Below the pieces are notes generated by a model. That model searched no databases, was not told where the DNA came from, and was given only the letters and a program-made list of their open reading frames with translations. A stretch of 34,942 nt of DNA from Planctomycetota bacterium. GTDB lineage: Bacteria > Planctomycetota > Phycisphaerae > Sedimentisphaerales > Anaerobacaceae. Shown here piece by piece: positions 10,304 to 23,848 of this stretch; the first letter of the stretch is position 1, and each line of letters starts with the position of its first letter. The position numbers were made by a program, and so were the translations under genes. The DNA is taken from NCBI GenBank assembly GCA_012719085.1, contig JAAYBA010000478.1:1-34942 (forward strand). The letters are read 5' to 3'.

Positions 10304-12439
10304 ATGGCATCCGACCGTCCCAAAACGTCGCCGCATTCCGTCGGCAAGCCCGAGGCCCTCCGGGACCTGGCCGGCAGTCCTCTGGGCACACACAGCAACA
10401 TCATCATGGCCGTCGGCCTGGTCGCCGTGCTCGCGACCCTGATCATTCCGCTGCCCACCACGGTGCTCGACATGCTCCTGGCGTGCAGCATCTCGCTGGC
10501 CATTGCCGTACTCATCGTAACGCTCTCGTCGAAAGAGCCGCTCGAATTGTCCACCTTCCCCTCCCTGCTGCTGTTCGTCACGCTGTTTCGACTCTCGTTG
10601 AACGTCGCCTCGACCCGTCTGATTCTGCTCCATGGCGACGCCGGCAAGATCATCCACACCTTCGGCGGCTTCGTCGCCGGCGGCAGCTTCGTCGTCGGCC
10701 TGGTCATCTTCCTGATCCTCGTCATCATTCAGTTCATCGTGATCACCAAGGGCGCCGAGCGCATCAGCGAAGTGTCGGCGCGATTCACCCTCGATGCCAT
10801 GCCCGGCAAACAGATGGCCATCGACGCCGATCTCAACGCCGGCGCCATCACCGAGAGCCAGGCCAATGAACGCCGCGCCAAGATCGTCAAAGAGAGTGAG
10901 TTCTACGGCGCCATGGACGGGGCCAGCAAGTTTATCCGTGGCGACGCCAAGGCCGGCCTGATCATCACCGGCGTCAACATCGTCGGCGGCATCGCGATGG
11001 GCTACTCGCACGGCATGAACATCACTGACGCCATCAAGACCTACTCGATTCTCTCGATCGGCGACGGCCTGGTCAGCCAGATTCCCTCACTGATCATCTC
11101 GGTCAGCTCGGGCTTCCTCGTCACCAAGATCAGCTCAACCCAAAGCGTGGGCCAGGACATCTCCAGGCAGTTTCTCAAGGCCGGTCAGCCCCTCCTTGCG
11201 GCCGCCTGTATCATCGGGGCCATGGCTTTCGTCCCCGGCATGCCCAAGCTTCAGTTCCTGGTCCTGGGCGCCGCCGTCGGACTGATCGGACGAATGGCCA
11301 CCCGGAACGAGAAGAAACCGCTGTCGGCTCCGGAGTCCCCCGTCAAGAAGACCGACAAGGAGCCGGTCGAAGATCTTCTGGACATCGATCGCATCTCCGT
11401 CCACGTCGGCGTGCGTCTGATCACCCTGGTGGACCCGCGTAAGAGCAACACGATCTTCGAGCGAATCGGGGCCCTGCGTCGGCAGTTCGCCCAGCACCTG
11501 GGAATCGTCATTCCCCTGGTCCGCCTGCGGGATGATCTGAATCTCGAACCGAACGCCTACGAGATTCGCCTCTCGGAGATTCCCGTGGCCAAAGGCCACC
11601 TCGAACCGGAGATGTTCCTGGCGATGGACCCGGGGGTCATCCGCGAGAAGGTCGACGGCATCCCGACAACGGAGCCGGTATATGGACTGCCCGCCACGTG
11701 GATCTCCGCCAGCAAGAAGGAGGCCGCCGAGTTGAGCGGCTACACCGTCATCGACCCGGAGAGCGTCTTCATCACTCACCTGTCCGAAACAGTCAAACGC
11801 CATGCCGACGAACTGCTGACCCGCGAGGACGTCCAACTGCTCGTCGACCGCCTCCGCAAGAACCAGCCGTCGCTGGTCGGAGAAGTCGTCGGCACCGGCG
11901 GCGACGTCTCGATCGCCTTGCTCCAGCGGGTCCTCAAGAACCTGCTCAAGAGCGGCATTCCGGTCCGCGAACTGACGGCGATACTCGAATCTCTCGCGGA
12001 AAACGCATCGAAGACGAAAAACGCCAACACGCTGACCGAGGTCGTCCGCAAATCCCTGAGCCGAACGATCACCGAACTGTACAAGAACGAGGCCGACAAG
12101 ATCATCGCCATCACGTTCGATCCGGCCTTCGAGCACCAGTTGACCGCCGGCCTCAGCCAGGACGGCGGCGAGCTGACGCTGAGTCTCCCGGCCGAACTCG
12201 CCATGGAACTGAACCGAACCACCGCTCAGACATGGCGATCGGCGATGGATCAGGGCAGCGAGAAGCTCGTGCTGCTCTGTGACGCACGGTTGCGGGCGCC
12301 GCTGGCCCGCATGCTCGCGCGAACGCTGCCGATGTTGCCCGTTGTGGCCTACGACGAGATCGTCCTGGGCACCGAAGTCGAATCGATCGAGACGATCGCG
12401 CCCCAGGAGAAGGCGGCCCCGGCCTACGCACAGACCTGA
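10304..12439 (+). CDS. flhA: Flagellar type III export gate protein FlhA
   Basis: A 711-residue member of the FlhA/InvA/LcrD (FHIPEP) family. The N-terminal half has about eight membrane helices and the conserved cytoplasmic loop (FVITKGAERISEVSARFTLD, DAMPGKQMAIDADLNAG), and the C-terminal half is the nonameric cytoplasmic ring that receives chaperone-substrate complexes. The ATG follows AAAAGGAG. FlhA uses the proton-motive force to drive export of rod, hook and filament proteins. Normal family length is about 690-710, so it is intact. FlhB, FliP, FliQ and FliR are not in this window, so the export genes are split between loci. Confidence 0.98.
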   Translation: MASDRPKTSPHSVGKPEALRDLAGSPLGTHSNIIMAVGLVAVLATLIIPLPTTVLDMLLACSISLAIAVLIVTLSSKEPLELSTFPSLLLFVTLFRLSLNVASTRLILLHGDAGKIIHTFGGFVAGGSFVVGLVIFLILVIIQFIVITKGAERISEVSARFTLDAMPGKQMAIDADLNAGAITESQANERRAKIVKESEFYGAMDGASKFIRGDAKAGLIITGVNIVGGIAMGYSHGMNITDAIKTYSILSIGDGLVSQIPSLIISVSSGFLVTKISSTQSVGQDISRQFLKAGQPLLAAACIIGAMAFVPGMPKLQFLVLGAAVGLIGRMATRNEKKPLSAPESPVKKTDKEPVEDLLDIDRISVHVGVRLITLVDPRKSNTIFERIGALRRQFAQHLGIVIPLVRLRDDLNLEPNAYEIRLSEIPVAKGHLEPEMFLAMDPGVIREKVDGIPTTEPVYGLPATWISASKKEAAELSGYTVIDPESVFITHLSETVKRHADELLTREDVQLLVDRLRKNQPSLVGEVVGTGGDVSIALLQRVLKNLLKSGIPVRELTAILESLAENASKTKNANTLTEVVRKSLSRTITELYKNEADKIIAITFDPAFEHQLTAGLSQDGGELTLSLPAELAMELNRTTAQTWRSAMDQGSEKLVLLCDARLRAPLARMLARTLPMLPVVAYDEIVLGTEVESIETIAPQEKAAPAYAQT

Positions 12440-12457
12440 GAGGAGAACCCCTGACCT

Positions 12458-12697
12458 ATGGTGCTACAAACACGACCCATTGCGTTCACGACGGCCGTCA
12501 TTGCGTTCTTCGTTCTGAGCATTGTCGGAAGCGTCGTGGGCCTGCCGCCCTGCACCTGCAGCAAGCGGGCCGTGCTGGGAGCGCTCGCCGCCTACATGGC
12601 CGCCTCCGTCGCCGTACGCGCAGTCAATGCGATCCTGACCCAAGCGATGATCGCCAGCCAGACAAGCAAGGACCATGCCGGTGCCCACAAGAACTGA
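12458..12697 (+). CDS. Small membrane protein of unknown function
   Basis: The product has 79 residues with two hydrophobic segments: FTTAVIAFFVLSIVGSVVGL (about 11-30) and AVLGALAAYMAASVAVRAVN (about 38-57), separated by a CTCSKR turn. The ATG at 12458 is preceded by GAGGAG at slightly long spacing, 18 bases after flhA, and its end overlaps fliA by 23 bases. It occupies the place where flhF/flhG often sit between flhA and fliA. I do not recognise a family. Co-transcription with flhA and the two-helix layout suggest a membrane part of the export or motor machinery (inference). Confidence 0.7.
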   Translation: MVLQTRPIAFTTAVIAFFVLSIVGSVVGLPPCTCSKRAVLGALAAYMAASVAVRAVNAILTQAMIASQTSKDHAGAHKN

Positions 12698-13505
12698 AGA
12701 ACGTCCCGAGACAACCGACACGACAGCGGTCGAGCAGACCTCGGAGAGGAGCGACCCGCTCAAGGCCGTCGCGCTGCGCGCCTATTCGGGCCACCGACAT
12801 CGTCCGATCGGCGATGATGAGATCGTCGCTCTTCTGCCGATGGTCCGCCGGATCGCGCACCGCGCCGCCAGCTATCTGCATCCGCCCTTGTCGTTCGACG
12901 ACCTCGTCTCGGCCGGAACGGTCGGACTGCTCAAGGCCGCCCGCGATTTCGACGCCTCTCACCAAGCCGAGTTCGCAACGTACGCCTATATCCGGATCAA
13001 GGGGGCTGTGCTCGACGAGCTGCGCCGGGCCTCGCCGCTGCCATCCAACGTCAACCGGCAGGTCCGCCTGGCGCTGCGCGTCAGTCAGCAGATGACTCAG
13101 AGGACCGGAAACCCGCCGACCGACGAGCAGCTCGCCCAGGAACTGGGCATCTCCGTTGACGAAGTAGGAACGCTCTTCGAGAACGCCCGGGCTCAGCATT
13201 TCGTCTCTATCGACGGCCTTGCCGAGGAGCGGCCGGCCCTCGGGGAGATTCTGGCCTGCGCCGATGCGGCGGGACCCGACGCCCGCCTCGAAAAGACCGA
13301 GATGCTCACGAAGCTGACCGCAGCCATGCAGGAACTCGACTCACGTCGGCTTCAGATCGTCGTGCTCTACTACCACAAACACCTGACGATGAAGCAGATC
13401 GCCGACCTGCTCGAAATCACCGAGTCCCGCGTCAGTCAGTTGCACGCCAGTGCCCTGGCTATTCTTTCCGGGAAATTGGGAGAATACAGCGATGACGGAC
13501 AGTGA
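12675..13505 (+). CDS. fliA: RNA polymerase sigma factor for flagellar genes, FliA/WhiG (sigma-28) type
   Basis: A 276-residue sigma-70-family factor. Region 2 includes the helix around SFDDLVSAGTVGLLKAARDF and ATYAYIRIKGAVLDELRRAS, the latter diagnostic of FliA/WhiG. Region 3 follows (PTDEQLAQELGISVDEV), and region 4 ends with LTMKQIADLLEITESRVSQL, which reads the -35 element. It directs late flagellar genes from promoters like the one proposed at 15427. It starts inside the end of the small membrane protein, with AAGGA just before the ATG, and its 3' end overlaps the next small gene by 14 bases. Confidence 0.95.
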   Translation: MPVPTRTEERPETTDTTAVEQTSERSDPLKAVALRAYSGHRHRPIGDDEIVALLPMVRRIAHRAASYLHPPLSFDDLVSAGTVGLLKAARDFDASHQAEFATYAYIRIKGAVLDELRRASPLPSNVNRQVRLALRVSQQMTQRTGNPPTDEQLAQELGISVDEVGTLFENARAQHFVSIDGLAEERPALGEILACADAAGPDARLEKTEMLTKLTAAMQELDSRRLQIVVLYYHKHLTMKQIADLLEITESRVSQLHASALAILSGKLGEYSDDGQ

Positions 13506-16673: not shown

Positions 16674-18071
16674 TTATCCTTCGTCGTCGGAATCGGGCGG
16701 CGGGGTCTTCTTGAGCGGCGCGGTCCAGAGGTAGACGGTGTGATTGATGTAGCTGCCGTCCTCGGTCATCTCGACGACGTCGTCTGGCTCGACGCCTTTC
16801 ATGTCGAAATCGTGCGAAACAATCCGCGAGCCGGGCTTGAGCTTCTCCAACTGGGGGATGAGCTTCACGTTCAGGCTGGGCAGCAGATACAGTGTCACGA
16901 CGTCGGCGCCGCTCAGATCGAGCGTAAAGATGTCCTTCTGCTCGATGGTGACGAGGTGGCCGACACCGTGCGCCTCGACGTTTGCAAGCGACTCGGCCAC
17001 GCGCTGCGGGTCGATGTCGTAGCCGAAGGCCCTACACCCGAAGCGTTCGGCGGCAGTGACGACGATCCGCCCGTCGCCGCAACCAAGGTCGTAGACGATG
17101 TCGCCGGGCTTGACCTGGGCCATCTCCAGCATCTTGTCCACTACGATCTGCGGGGTCGGCACATAGACGACGTCGGGCTTGCGCGAGGCGACCATCAGGG
17201 GCGGGCGCGTATCGGCCCGAGTCAATGCGATTCCGTCCAGCGGCGGCTCGATCTTGCCTGGGTCCAGCCCGAACGCCTCCAGAATGGTCGGCGCGATATC
17301 CTGGCGACGGCCGTCGCGATAGACCACCTTATTGTCGGTGACCAGGAAGGCCGGGGCGACGAAACTTTGGTCGGCCTCGTTCGGACCGTGGCCGGCGGTG
17401 ACGTACACCTGGGTCTTGCCGGTCAATCCGAGCGACTTGATCTTGTCCATGATCCGTCCGGTCCACCGATCGTTAGAGATCAGGGCGTCCTTGTACTGCC
17501 TGGAGGTTCGGCCGTACGTACGCGCGGCGCTGTCGGCTTGCGCGAAACGCACGAGAAGGAAGAAGGGCCCGTCCTTGTACTTGTCGAGCAGTTCGACGGC
17601 CCGGGCTCCGACCCGCTCGTCGCGCAGCAGACCCTCTTCCGCAATTTCGAGGACCGCCGGGCGCAATCCTGCCGGCGTCTGCTGCCGGCCGATCACCGCG
17701 GCGGTAACGAATTTATCCGGGCCGAAGTGATTTTCCAGCCGCTCGAAGAGGCTTACGCCCTTGCCGCCGGCCCCGGAGGCCCCGTCGCCCGAACCAACTG
17801 CTTTGGGCAGATAGCCCGTGAGGATCTCCTTCCAGGCCCCATCGGTGTTGACGATACCCTCACCGTGGATCCGCACAAGAACGCCCCGATCGATGAGCTG
17901 CTGCAGACCGGGCAGTTCCTCGCGTGTCAGCGACTGATCGACGTGCTCGCGTTCGGCTCCGTCCCATCCGACCAGAACGATGTTCTGCGGGCCGGCGGCC
18001 ACACCGATGACCGGCGACAGAACCATCAAAAGACCGACACACAGCGATAGACGGACGATTCTACCTCGCAT
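16674..18071 (-). CDS. Secreted fusion: alkaline-phosphatase/phosphodiesterase-like domain plus SAM methyltransferase
   Basis: A 465-residue protein with a Sec signal peptide (LSLCVGLLMVLSPVIGVAAG) starting at ATG 18071 behind AGAGGAG. Residues about 28-290 resemble the alkaline phosphatase/type I phosphodiesterase superfamily: IVLVGWDGAERE, a Thr at nucleophile spacing in NTDGAWKEILTG, and a late VYVTAGHGPNE. The usual DHG metal motif appears as GHG, so metal binding may be altered. Residues about 310-455 form a class I methyltransferase: VYDLGCGDGRIVVTAA for SAM, YDIDPQRVAES, and LYLLPSLNVKLIPQLEKLKP. Single-domain secreted versions of this methyltransferase are common in planctomycetes; the fusion is unusual. 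The substrate is unknown. Confidence 0.85.
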   Translation of the reverse strand: MRGRIVRLSLCVGLLMVLSPVIGVAAGPQNIVLVGWDGAEREHVDQSLTREELPGLQQLIDRGVLVRIHGEGIVNTDGAWKEILTGYLPKAVGSGDGASGAGGKGVSLFERLENHFGPDKFVTAAVIGRQQTPAGLRPAVLEIAEEGLLRDERVGARAVELLDKYKDGPFFLLVRFAQADSAARTYGRTSRQYKDALISNDRWTGRIMDKIKSLGLTGKTQVYVTAGHGPNEADQSFVAPAFLVTDNKVVYRDGRRQDIAPTILEAFGLDPGKIEPPLDGIALTRADTRPPLMVASRKPDVVYVPTPQIVVDKMLEMAQVKPGDIVYDLGCGDGRIVVTAAERFGCRAFGYDIDPQRVAESLANVEAHGVGHLVTIEQKDIFTLDLSGADVVTLYLLPSLNVKLIPQLEKLKPGSRIVSHDFDMKGVEPDDVVEMTEDGSYINHTVYLWTAPLKKTPPPDSDDEG

Positions 18072-18235
18072 CGTTTGCTCCTCTCAACAGGGTCTTTGGA
18101 CTTCGAATCGCGATTCGTCCGGGGACGTCTGCCGTCCGGAATCTACAACGGACCCTGCCACGCTAACGAACGCGGCCTCAGAACGTCAATAGGGAAAAAT
18201 CCCGCCGATCTGACCTCGAACGGGCCTGTTGGGCG

Positions 18236-21743: not shown

Positions 21744-22865
21744 CTATCGGCCCGTCAGGCGCCGGATCAATGTCACTTCCTGTACGTCATACGGCGTGCC
21801 GTCGGGGCGAAGGATATCGTGGAACCAGACATCGGGCTCGGCCTTGTACGATTTCGTCCAGGAGTCCCACGGGTAGATGGTCTGCGTCTTGCCGGCGACA
21901 AAGCCCCAGTTGTAGGCGCCGATCCGCTGCTGTTTGAGGTACGGCAGGATATCGGCGAACGTGCTGCCGGCGGGGCGGGCCATGTATTCGGTGCAGAGGA
22001 TCGGCCGGCCGTAGCGTCTCAGCGATTCGACGCGACGTTTCATTTCGTCCAGATTCCCGTAGCAGTGGAACGTGATGATGTCCGACTGTTCCAGCAGGAA
22101 CCGATTGATCTCGGAGAGCTTCGCGTCATCGGACCAGTCGCCCGCCCACACGCCGGCGGTGATCGGCTGGGTGGGACCGGCTTGGCGGGCCCAGGCAAAC
22201 GCCTTCTCCAGGAGCATCAGCGACAGCGCGGCCTTGTTTTCGGGCTCGAACTGCACGTAGGCCGGATCGTTCCGGTTGTCGGGCTCGTTGAAAATATCCC
22301 ACGCATGGACGCGACGGTCTTTTCGAAAGTGGCCGACGACGCCTTTGATATAGTCCTCCAGCTCGTCGTGCCGGGCCGGGTCGCGGAGGATCTCGACGCC
22401 GGGACTCTGGAGCCAGCCGGAGTTGTGGATGTGCGCGATCGGCTCGGGCTGCGGCCCGAGCTGGGGATACGGGTCCCAGCAGCCGTCGAGCAGAACGAAC
22501 ATCACACCGATCCCGTGTCGGTCGGCGATGTCGAGAAACCGCTCCATGCGATGGAGCAGACCGCGGGCATGCTGCTCCCAGAGCAGATGGTGAAGATAGA
22601 CACGAACGCTGTTGAAGCCGAGCTTCGAGGCCCAGGCCAGCTCTCTGTCGATGGTGGCCGGGTCGAACGTCTCACGCTGCCACATTTCGAGCTGGTTGAC
22701 GGCGGTGCTGGGCGAGAAGTTGCAGCCCACCAGCCAGGGCATCTCGGCGTACCAAGCGTTGGCCTCCTGCGGCGACCACTGCTCGACCGCCTTCGACCCA
22801 AGCGAGGCACACCCACTCGCCAACAACAGAAGCGACAGCGGAATCCATCCCACGCGATACGTCAT
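21744..22865 (-). CDS. Lipoprotein glycoside hydrolase, GH5-like (clan A TIM barrel)
   Basis: The product has 373 residues; the ATG at 22865 lies 5 bases after the FGE-like gene. A lipobox signal (LSLLLLASGCAS) predicts a lipid anchor, so it acts in the periplasm or at the cell surface. The barrel has WLVGCNFSPSTAVNQ, the acid/base motif AWDIFNEPDN (Glu near 192) and the nucleophile strand ILCTEYMARP (Glu near 292), typical of retaining clan-A hydrolases such as GH5. The WxxDP-rich loop near the catalytic centre (LLDGCWDPYPQLGPQPEP) could form the substrate cleft. Substrate (mannan, glucan or other) cannot be told by eye. Confidence 0.82.
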   Translation of the reverse strand: MTYRVGWIPLSLLLLASGCASLGSKAVEQWSPQEANAWYAEMPWLVGCNFSPSTAVNQLEMWQRETFDPATIDRELAWASKLGFNSVRVYLHHLLWEQHARGLLHRMERFLDIADRHGIGVMFVLLDGCWDPYPQLGPQPEPIAHIHNSGWLQSPGVEILRDPARHDELEDYIKGVVGHFRKDRRVHAWDIFNEPDNRNDPAYVQFEPENKAALSLMLLEKAFAWARQAGPTQPITAGVWAGDWSDDAKLSEINRFLLEQSDIITFHCYGNLDEMKRRVESLRRYGRPILCTEYMARPAGSTFADILPYLKQQRIGAYNWGFVAGKTQTIYPWDSWTKSYKAEPDVWFHDILRPDGTPYDVQEVTLIRRLTGR

Positions 22866-22870
22866 GGTCT

Positions 22871-23848
22871 TCAGTCCTTCGGCACCGAACAGGCGACGCG
22901 GAAGCCGATGAAGTCGATCTGGGGCAGCCACCATTTGCTCTTGGGAATCTGCGGATCGTTCATGCGCCACCAGGGCTCCTCGAACGCCCGAGCCGCACAA
23001 CGCAGTTCCGCAACCGGGCTCTCGTAGAACCCCCCGCGTGCGACGTGCACCGTGCCCTCTTCGGGACCCTTCGGGTTCTTCGTCGCGGCGTTGGCATAGC
23101 CGTTGGGCTGGTAGAAGTCGTGGACCCACTCGCGTACGTTGCCCGACATATCGTAGAGGCCCCAGCTGTTGGGCTTCTTCGTGGCGACCGCACTGGGCCC
23201 GAAGTCGGCGTTGTCCTCGTACCAGGCATAGTCGCCCAACTTCTCGGGGTCGTCGCCGAAACCGAATACGGAGTCCGTCCCGGCCCGGGCGGCGTATTCC
23301 CACTCGGCTTCGGTGGGCAGACGGTACATCTTGCCGGTCTTCTGCGAAAGCCACTGGCAGAAGACGGTCGCGTTATGCCAACTCATGCCCATCGCCGGAT
23401 GCTTGACGCTGTAACCCATCGTCATGTCGCCGTAGACCGGCGTCGGCCCGGTGATCGTGTCGACGCCGCCGGTGGGAGCTTCGGCGTTCTTCTGGGCCTC
23501 CTGGACCTCGACGAACTCCTTTTTGGCCGTGCCGGTTTCCTGGTAATAGGCCATGAACAACTCGAGTGTCGTCTCGGTGGTACACAGATAGAACGCATCG
23601 AGGCTGACCTTGCGATGCGGCCCCTCGTCATCATTGCGACCGGCTTCGCTCGCCGGGCTGCCCATCGTGAAGCTGCCGCCGGGGATCAGGACCATGTCGA
23701 GCGAGAGCTTGGCGCCGGTCTTGCTCGTAATCGTCTCGGTATACTTCTTCGGGAGTTTGTCTTCGGCCGCCATGGCGCTGCCAAAGAGCATCGCCACGAT
23801 ACAGATCGCCAGTTCGCCGCTGCGCATTTGCCTCTTACTGATGTTCAC
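22871..23848 (-). CDS. FGE-sulfatase domain protein without the catalytic Cys pair
   Basis: The product has 325 residues; the GTG start follows AAGGAG. An N-terminal signal peptide (ICIVAMLFGSAMA) predicts export. The domain is the FGE/SUMF1/EgtB fold: MVLIPGGSFTMGSP, YRLPTEAEWEYAARAGTD, NSWGLYDMSGNVREWVHDFY and final IDFIGFRVACSVPKD. In true formylglycine-generating enzymes the segment before RCAAR carries two catalytic cysteines; here the segment is GGFYESPVAELRCAAR with only the last Cys and is shorter. So it probably does not convert Cys to formylglycine in sulfatases, and may be a binding or structural member of the family. Confidence 0.86.
   Translation of the reverse strand: MNISKRQMRSGELAICIVAMLFGSAMAAEDKLPKKYTETITSKTGAKLSLDMVLIPGGSFTMGSPASEAGRNDDEGPHRKVSLDAFYLCTTETTLELFMAYYQETGTAKKEFVEVQEAQKNAEAPTGGVDTITGPTPVYGDMTMGYSVKHPAMGMSWHNATVFCQWLSQKTGKMYRLPTEAEWEYAARAGTDSVFGFGDDPEKLGDYAWYEDNADFGPSAVATKKPNSWGLYDMSGNVREWVHDFYQPNGYANAATKNPKGPEEGTVHVARGGFYESPVAELRCAARAFEEPWWRMNDPQIPKSKWWLPQIDFIGFRVACSVPKD

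Follow-up and report, generated by a model that had tools for sequence, protein, structure and literature searches.

A gene in the window, by which we mean the whole stretch of 34,942 nucleotides analysed here, raises the question of how a protein with a predicted signal peptide could make use of S-adenosylmethionine (SAM). Soluble enzymes that methylate with SAM are taken to work only in compartments with a SAM pool. The initial annotation, made from the sequence alone, had described a signal peptide, a phosphatase-like domain and a methyltransferase in one chain, and had found an exported SAM-dependent enzyme puzzling. The open reading frame, the N-terminal pattern and the Pfam hits to both halves bore out the single chain (Table 1), and the puzzle proved to be real and far wider than this gene, extending to an exported methyltransferase (MT) module and to exported O-methyltransferases.

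Table 1. Features of the fusion gene and its product, in coordinates of the window
Feature	Position	Strand	Remarks
Fusion protein CDS	16674..18071	minus	465 aa + stop, ATG start
Shine-Dalgarno-like GAGAGGAG	18078..18085	minus	six bases 5' of ATG; read from genomic letters
Predicted signal peptide, residues 1-26 (end SPVIGVAA)	17994..18071	minus	also in aligned homologues
Phosphodiesterase (PDE)-like half, residues 29-289	17205..17987	minus	Pfam PF01663; Foldseek to XaNPP, alkaline phosphatase superfamily
R184 at metal-ligand His position	17520..17522	minus	PDE-half alignment
G227 at DHG Asp position (GHG, residues 227-229)	17391..17393	minus	PDE-half alignment
aKMT-like methyltransferase (MT) half, residues 298-455	16707..17180	minus	phmmer, Foldseek, AlphaFold2 model, MT alignment
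SAM-binding motif I VYDLGCGDGR, residues 326-335	17067..17096	minus	D328, G330, G332 invariant

The fusion protein and its two halves

The N-terminus of the fusion protein, MRGRIVRLSLCVGLLMVLSPVIGVAA as read from the genomic letters, has a typical signal peptide pattern. Pfam placed Phosphodiest (PF01663) at residues 153-246 (E 7.5e-11; 42.7 bits against a gathering score of 23) and Methyltransf_31 at residues 322-425 (E 1.1e-9; above its gathering score). We searched 61 genomes, namely that of the window (G000) and 60 relatives, for the same fusion, a check that the initial annotation had proposed. The same full-length layout recurred in three other members of the genus, G004 (93% identity), G005 (81%) and G001 (66-67%), and was not found by the genome search in G002 and G003, two of the six same-genus genomes. 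PDE-MT fusions with longer linkers were found in G014, G012, G021 and G032 of the 61 genomes; the loci with such linkers (L047, L048, L061, L074, L079, L097 and L027) also involve other genera. We do not claim that PDE and MT were fused several times independently: in the MT tree, the PDE label needs eight changes, yet a single grouping of all PDE-fused rows was not rejected (AU; P = 0.061). At two of these loci (L047, 1408-3852; L079, 1107-3672), the PDE-MT gene is directly followed by a lipoprotein-MT gene, and in the tree the MT domains of the two adjoining genes cluster, a pattern that duplication or gene conversion would give.

To examine the PDE half, we aligned this part of the four genus members with 12 other PDE halves, eight from fused and four from unfused proteins. 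On the basis of NPP structures, we presume that positions 184, 227 and 235 are metal ligands and that T76 is the nucleophile. The His at residue 184 is absent from all four genus members (R, R, R and T) and is kept in the 12 others; residue 227 is Gly in the four and Asp in the 12; and the third His, at the position of Q235, is absent from the four and kept in 11 of the 12, the exception being L097. T76 is kept in the window protein and in G004 and is replaced by A in G005 and by G in G001. The complete two-metal site of the PF01663 family was accordingly not seen in the window protein in this alignment. The GHG motif in place of DHG, noticed in the initial annotation, is present at residues 227-229, but it is just one of at least three lost metal ligands, a loss shared by the four genus members at positions that the relatives retain. 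The assignment to the alkaline phosphatase superfamily also agreed with the Foldseek hits, but within it the nearer relative of the domain is type I phosphodiesterase/nucleotide pyrophosphatase, and alkaline phosphatase proper is more distant.

Both halves are under purifying selection, with a dN of the PDE half about twice that of the MT half. Since the metal ligands are lost and the PDE half is still under purifying selection, it is probably a retained pseudoenzyme in this genus. Joint catalysis by the two halves is thus unlikely, and we rejected it for this genus because the ligands are gone; the related suggestion that both halves act on one substrate fares no better, as the MT module is fused elsewhere to seven other Pfam-recognized domains. 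Long lysine/alanine-rich linker inserts were seen in the ligand-keeping PDE halves of L061, L079 and L036 and in none from the window's genus; these inserts are possible methylation targets.

The MT half had been described as a complete methyltransferase with a SAM-binding GCGDG motif, and the alignment agreed with this description. DLGCGDGR lies at residues 328-335. We aligned 95 rows, made up of the window's domain and 94 from the scanned loci; aKMT was included in the alignment and left out of the counts. No row departs from D328, G330, G332, G350 or G414, position 352 (D in the window protein) has D or E in 99% of the rows, and D380 and H420 are nearly invariant. The best relatives with solved structures were aKMT 5FA8 (phmmer E 2.6e-43), 5JWJ and 5BXY. 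An AlphaFold2 model (mean pLDDT 75.8, mostly above 90 in the MT half) matched 5FAD, the SAH complex of aKMT, in Foldseek with a TM score of 0.93 by target and 48% identity. Counted along the phmmer alignment, G332 of the fusion protein corresponds to G38 of aKMT, and a G38R mutant of aKMT was used alongside the wild type in work described in the available part of PMC4639711. The NCBIfam model NF041081 (archaeal protein-lysine methyltransferase) gave 139.3 bits, below the equivalog cut-off of 200 bits, and we therefore do not claim membership of that equivalog. We think that the MT half belongs to the aKMT/FAM173 group, as an exported branch of it in bacteria.

The MT module in other putatively exported proteins

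A genome scan, which retained 80 of 81 relatives, yielded 82 MT ORFs from Phycisphaerae, Pirellulales, Gemmatales, Omnitrophota, Verrucomicrobia, Spirochaetes and a few Proteobacteria. The module was present in 49 of 89 genomes of the window's GTDB family, in 32 of 397 genomes of the class and in 4 of 294 genomes of a phylum sample in which the window's genome was counted. We scored signal peptides with a rule of our own, applied to the sequence in a loose and a strict form. Under the loose rule, a signal was found in 66 of 78 MT ORFs with a complete 5' end and in 138 of 341 neighbouring ORFs. Under the strict rule, which itself fires on about 30% of the neighbouring ORFs, the counts were 65 of 76 and 104 of 341 (Fisher P = 5e-19), after omission of four ORFs that run off a contig end, the cut ORF L056 and the masked-letter ORF L068; most of the 11 misses have a leader at a later start when inspected by eye.

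Many of the MT-family proteins are plain signal-plus-MT proteins or lipoproteins, with lipoboxes and one Tat-type leader among them. When 18 were scanned with Pfam for fusion partners, we found the PF01663 PDE, the PF01596 O-methyltransferase (three cases), the PF06439 3-keto-disaccharide hydrolase (two cases), the PF00884 sulfatase behind the Tat-type leader, PF03168 LEA_2, the PF01223 nuclease, GH9 with CelD_N, and GH5. The others have N-terminal parts with no Pfam match, and several carry tandem pairs or triplets. The MT domain thus appears, from these architectures, as a module shuffled among exported proteins. Three tandem MT domains in an exported protein were observed at L030 (3337-4914), L031 (5002-6543), L043, L044, L057, L069 and L070. 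At L046, L056 and L081, an unfused paralogue of the Pfam-unmatched N-terminal partner adjoins the fused MT gene.

Such an arrangement could also mean that the MT fold serves exported proteins for binding or structure, in the manner of a carbohydrate-binding module, without SAM turnover. Pairing with many unrelated enzymes and tandem triplets are indeed what binding modules show, and we know of no SAM source outside the cytoplasm. However, the SAM-contact residues are invariant over the 95 rows whereas the PDE half lost its ligands, and a second, unrelated exported methyltransferase family is present (see below); we consider a non-catalytic module unlikely.

No functional partner is evident near the fusion gene, which has a PIF1-like helicase upstream and, farther off, flagellar genes. 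For the MT genes in general we rejected a conserved partner, as the largest neighbour cluster comprised only six loci. At positions 10304-13505 the window encodes the flagellar protein FlhA (PF00771) together with a sigma-70 family factor that is perhaps FliA-like, and a weak GH5 cellulase-like gene (PF00150, 29 bits) lies near the fusion gene at 21744-23354.

Putatively exported O-methyltransferases and nucleosidases

The second family is that of the PF01596 O-methyltransferases. The window's genome has two of them, both with predicted signal peptides, and in a sample of 31 loci from the family (L121-L151), two of which are cut by a contig end, all 29 with a complete N-terminus passed the signal rule. 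A homocysteine S-methyltransferase was a neighbour at five of the 31 loci and an amino-acid permease at ten. In G000 (L121, contig C195, 1-3144) and G001 (L139, 288-3367), a PF02574 homocysteine S-methyltransferase, the exported O-methyltransferase and an amino-acid permease lie on one strand, an order that we take to resemble mmuM/mmuP.

Consumption of SAM outside the cytoplasm would leave SAH to be cleared, and we therefore searched for exported SAH nucleosidases. Nine of 30 PF01048 loci passed the signal rule, each of them with an MTA/SAH-type nucleosidase; one more locus of this type (L187), viewed as L231, has its leader if a later start is taken, and none of the other 20, which are MTA-phosphorylase-like by eye, passed. 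All seven nucleosidases tested exceeded the thresholds of TIGR01704 (145-166 against 73.8 bits) and NF004079 (215-229 against 169 bits). The MTA/SAH nucleosidase was present in 38 of the 89 family genomes, with 34 strong matches, and among 30 inspected loci a leader was seen by eye in all 28 whose N-terminus was readable. A PF00860 purine-type permease lies downstream on the same strand in 25 of the 30 loci (which include L209-L236). PF05221, a candidate for a further SAH-processing enzyme of the cytoplasm, matched in 65 of the 89 genomes, many of the matches being partial and near the threshold, and in neither G000 nor G001.

Among the 34 genomes with a strong nucleosidase match, 33 have at least one of the MT and O-methyltransferase families as well, and 27 genomes, the window's included, have a methyltransferase family without the nucleosidase. 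Over 45 genera, the associations were significant for MT with O-methyltransferase (P = 4e-6), O-methyltransferase with nucleosidase (P = 2e-4) and any methyltransferase with nucleosidase (P = 0.003), in tables that omit the weak nucleosidase matches (G206, G444, G023 and G348) and ignore kinship. In genomes of at least 3.5 Mb, the corresponding values were P = 0.004, 0.009 and 0.02, with P = 0.07 for MT with nucleosidase; no pair was significant in smaller genomes. Genome size and phylogeny stay confounders of this co-occurrence.

These results also admit a reading in which the exported nucleosidase and the purine permease scavenge environmental MTA and SAH for adenine, as proposed for Bgp of Borrelia, an exported MTAN linked to purine and methionine salvage in the accessible part of PMC7557402; co-occurrence with exported methyltransferases would then reflect large genomes with large secretomes and be uninformative on SAM outside the cell. 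The co-directional downstream permease fits such salvage, as does the distribution within the genus: an exported nucleosidase was not found in the window's genome, G004 or G005, three of the four fusion-bearing genomes, and of the six same-genus genomes only G001 has one. The salvage reading, for which Bgp is a precedent, and this distribution are the strongest counter-results to the explanation that we prefer. Salvage, however, leaves the export of the methyltransferases unexplained and fits poorly with the 33 of 34 genomes that pair nucleosidase and methyltransferase, and we regard it as improbable. The suggestion in the initial annotation of a compartment where SAM is available is favoured by the O-methyltransferases and nucleosidases that look exported in the same bacterial family, and is weakened by the window's genome, which is among those without the nucleosidase.

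Judged from its N-terminal sequence, the fusion protein is very probably exported across the cytoplasmic membrane. The N-terminus might instead be an inward-facing anchor, or the true start might lie downstream, leaving the MT domain cytoplasmic: export is a prediction here, the Elusimicrobia and WWE3 members (L116-L118) seem membrane-anchored by eye, and a putative membrane segment is described for human FAM173B in the available part of PMC9006661. Against this stand the good Shine-Dalgarno site at the first ATG, the signal peptide shared by the homologues, and the lipoboxes, Tat leader and typically secreted partners (GH5, GH9 and sulfatase) of the family, and we consider a cytoplasmic MT domain highly improbable. 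In the window's genome, six of the 22 generic methyltransferases whose N-terminus is complete passed the loose rule, the fusion gene among them; most of the remaining five are probably false positives. One methyltransferase of this genome (L176, contig C627, 1039-1905) has a hydrophobic N-terminal segment and perhaps faces outward too.

Although the contig comes from a draft genome of 658 contigs, the fusion is genuine, a single ORF and not an assembly error, since the same fusion in G004, G005 and G001, which are independent genomes, excludes a local assembly join, and with the join recurring at the seven longer-linker loci, the chance that two genes were joined by sequencing or assembly error, as the initial annotation had allowed, is negligible.

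The proposed explanation and known systems

We consider extracytoplasmic SAM-dependent methylation by an exported aKMT-like module to be the best single explanation, with about an even chance of being right; SAM-dependent catalysis outside the cytoplasm, taken more generally, has somewhat better prospects. The fusion protein would cross the cytoplasmic membrane by its predicted Sec signal peptide, and its working half would be the C-terminal methyltransferase, which would methylate extracytoplasmic targets with SAM. These targets would most likely be lysines of envelope or secreted proteins, by analogy with the cytosolic archaeal aKMT. The PDE half, formerly a metal-dependent phosphodiesterase, is probably a non-catalytic remnant or a binding or positioning domain in this genus. 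On a wider scale, the several exported methyltransferase families of Phycisphaerae and relatives, among them the shuffled aKMT-like module joined to secreted enzymes, the exported SAH nucleosidase, an adenine-retrieving purine permease and, in the window's genus, the operon of homocysteine S-methyltransferase, O-methyltransferase and amino-acid permease may form an extracytoplasmic methylation system, which we put forward only tentatively.

The component families are already known. The open-licence literature that we searched yielded no account of this exported module, of methylation as a periplasmic system or of SAM outside the bacterial cytoplasm; the available text of a planctomycete proteome paper uses "methyltransferase" once, for a 16S rRNA enzyme (PMC8567305). 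The exported methyltransferases form a large and conserved set that looks catalytically intact, and alongside them is an exported enzyme for SAH, an inhibitory by-product; the presence of SAM in the periplasm and its route thereby become directly testable. If our explanation is true, it adds a layer of protein or metabolite modification on the envelope and the extracellular enzymes of Planctomycetota, and a methylation system of the wider kind would imply a route for SAM or another sulfonium donor into the periplasm.

Among known systems, XaNPP (PDB 2GSN and 7N1S; PF01663) is matched by the central part of the PDE half in sequence and fold, but its ligands equivalent to H184, D227 and the third His are missing in the window's genus. 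Bgp of Borrelia burgdorferi belongs to the MTAN family and has a signal peptide (PMC7557402, in the part available), and the nucleosidases of the relatives studied here also look exported. Unlike Bgp, they adjoin a purine permease and occur in genomes with exported methyltransferases, while the window's genome is without a nucleosidase.

The nearest bacterial solved structure to the MT half is 5BXY of Salinibacter ruber (49% identity), which its depositors call an RNA methyltransferase. FAM173A and FAM173B (ANT-KMT and ATPSc-KMT), which we compared by description, are mitochondrial lysine methyltransferases without a PDE fusion, and mitochondria import SAM. They are distant relatives of aKMT that work in a non-cytosolic compartment, as described in the available part of PMC9006661. 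From the activity of FAM173B on poly-lysine (PMC5828452) and the mono-methylation of many proteins by aKMT (PMC4639711), as given in the accessible portions of these papers, we infer a lysine target, and we put the chance of a lysine or protein substrate at somewhat short of even. The aKMT substrates described in that portion of PMC4639711 are chromatin, exosome, ribosomal and replication proteins. The aKMT/aKMT4 of Sulfolobus islandicus (5FA8, 5FAD and 5JWJ), a broad-specificity protein-lysine methyltransferase, consists in the PDB of a single domain some 160 residues long, to which the window protein adds a signal peptide and a PDE half. Over the MT half, the two are 47-49% identical by structure alignment and have in common the fold, motif I and the conserved PTP and SHxF stretches.
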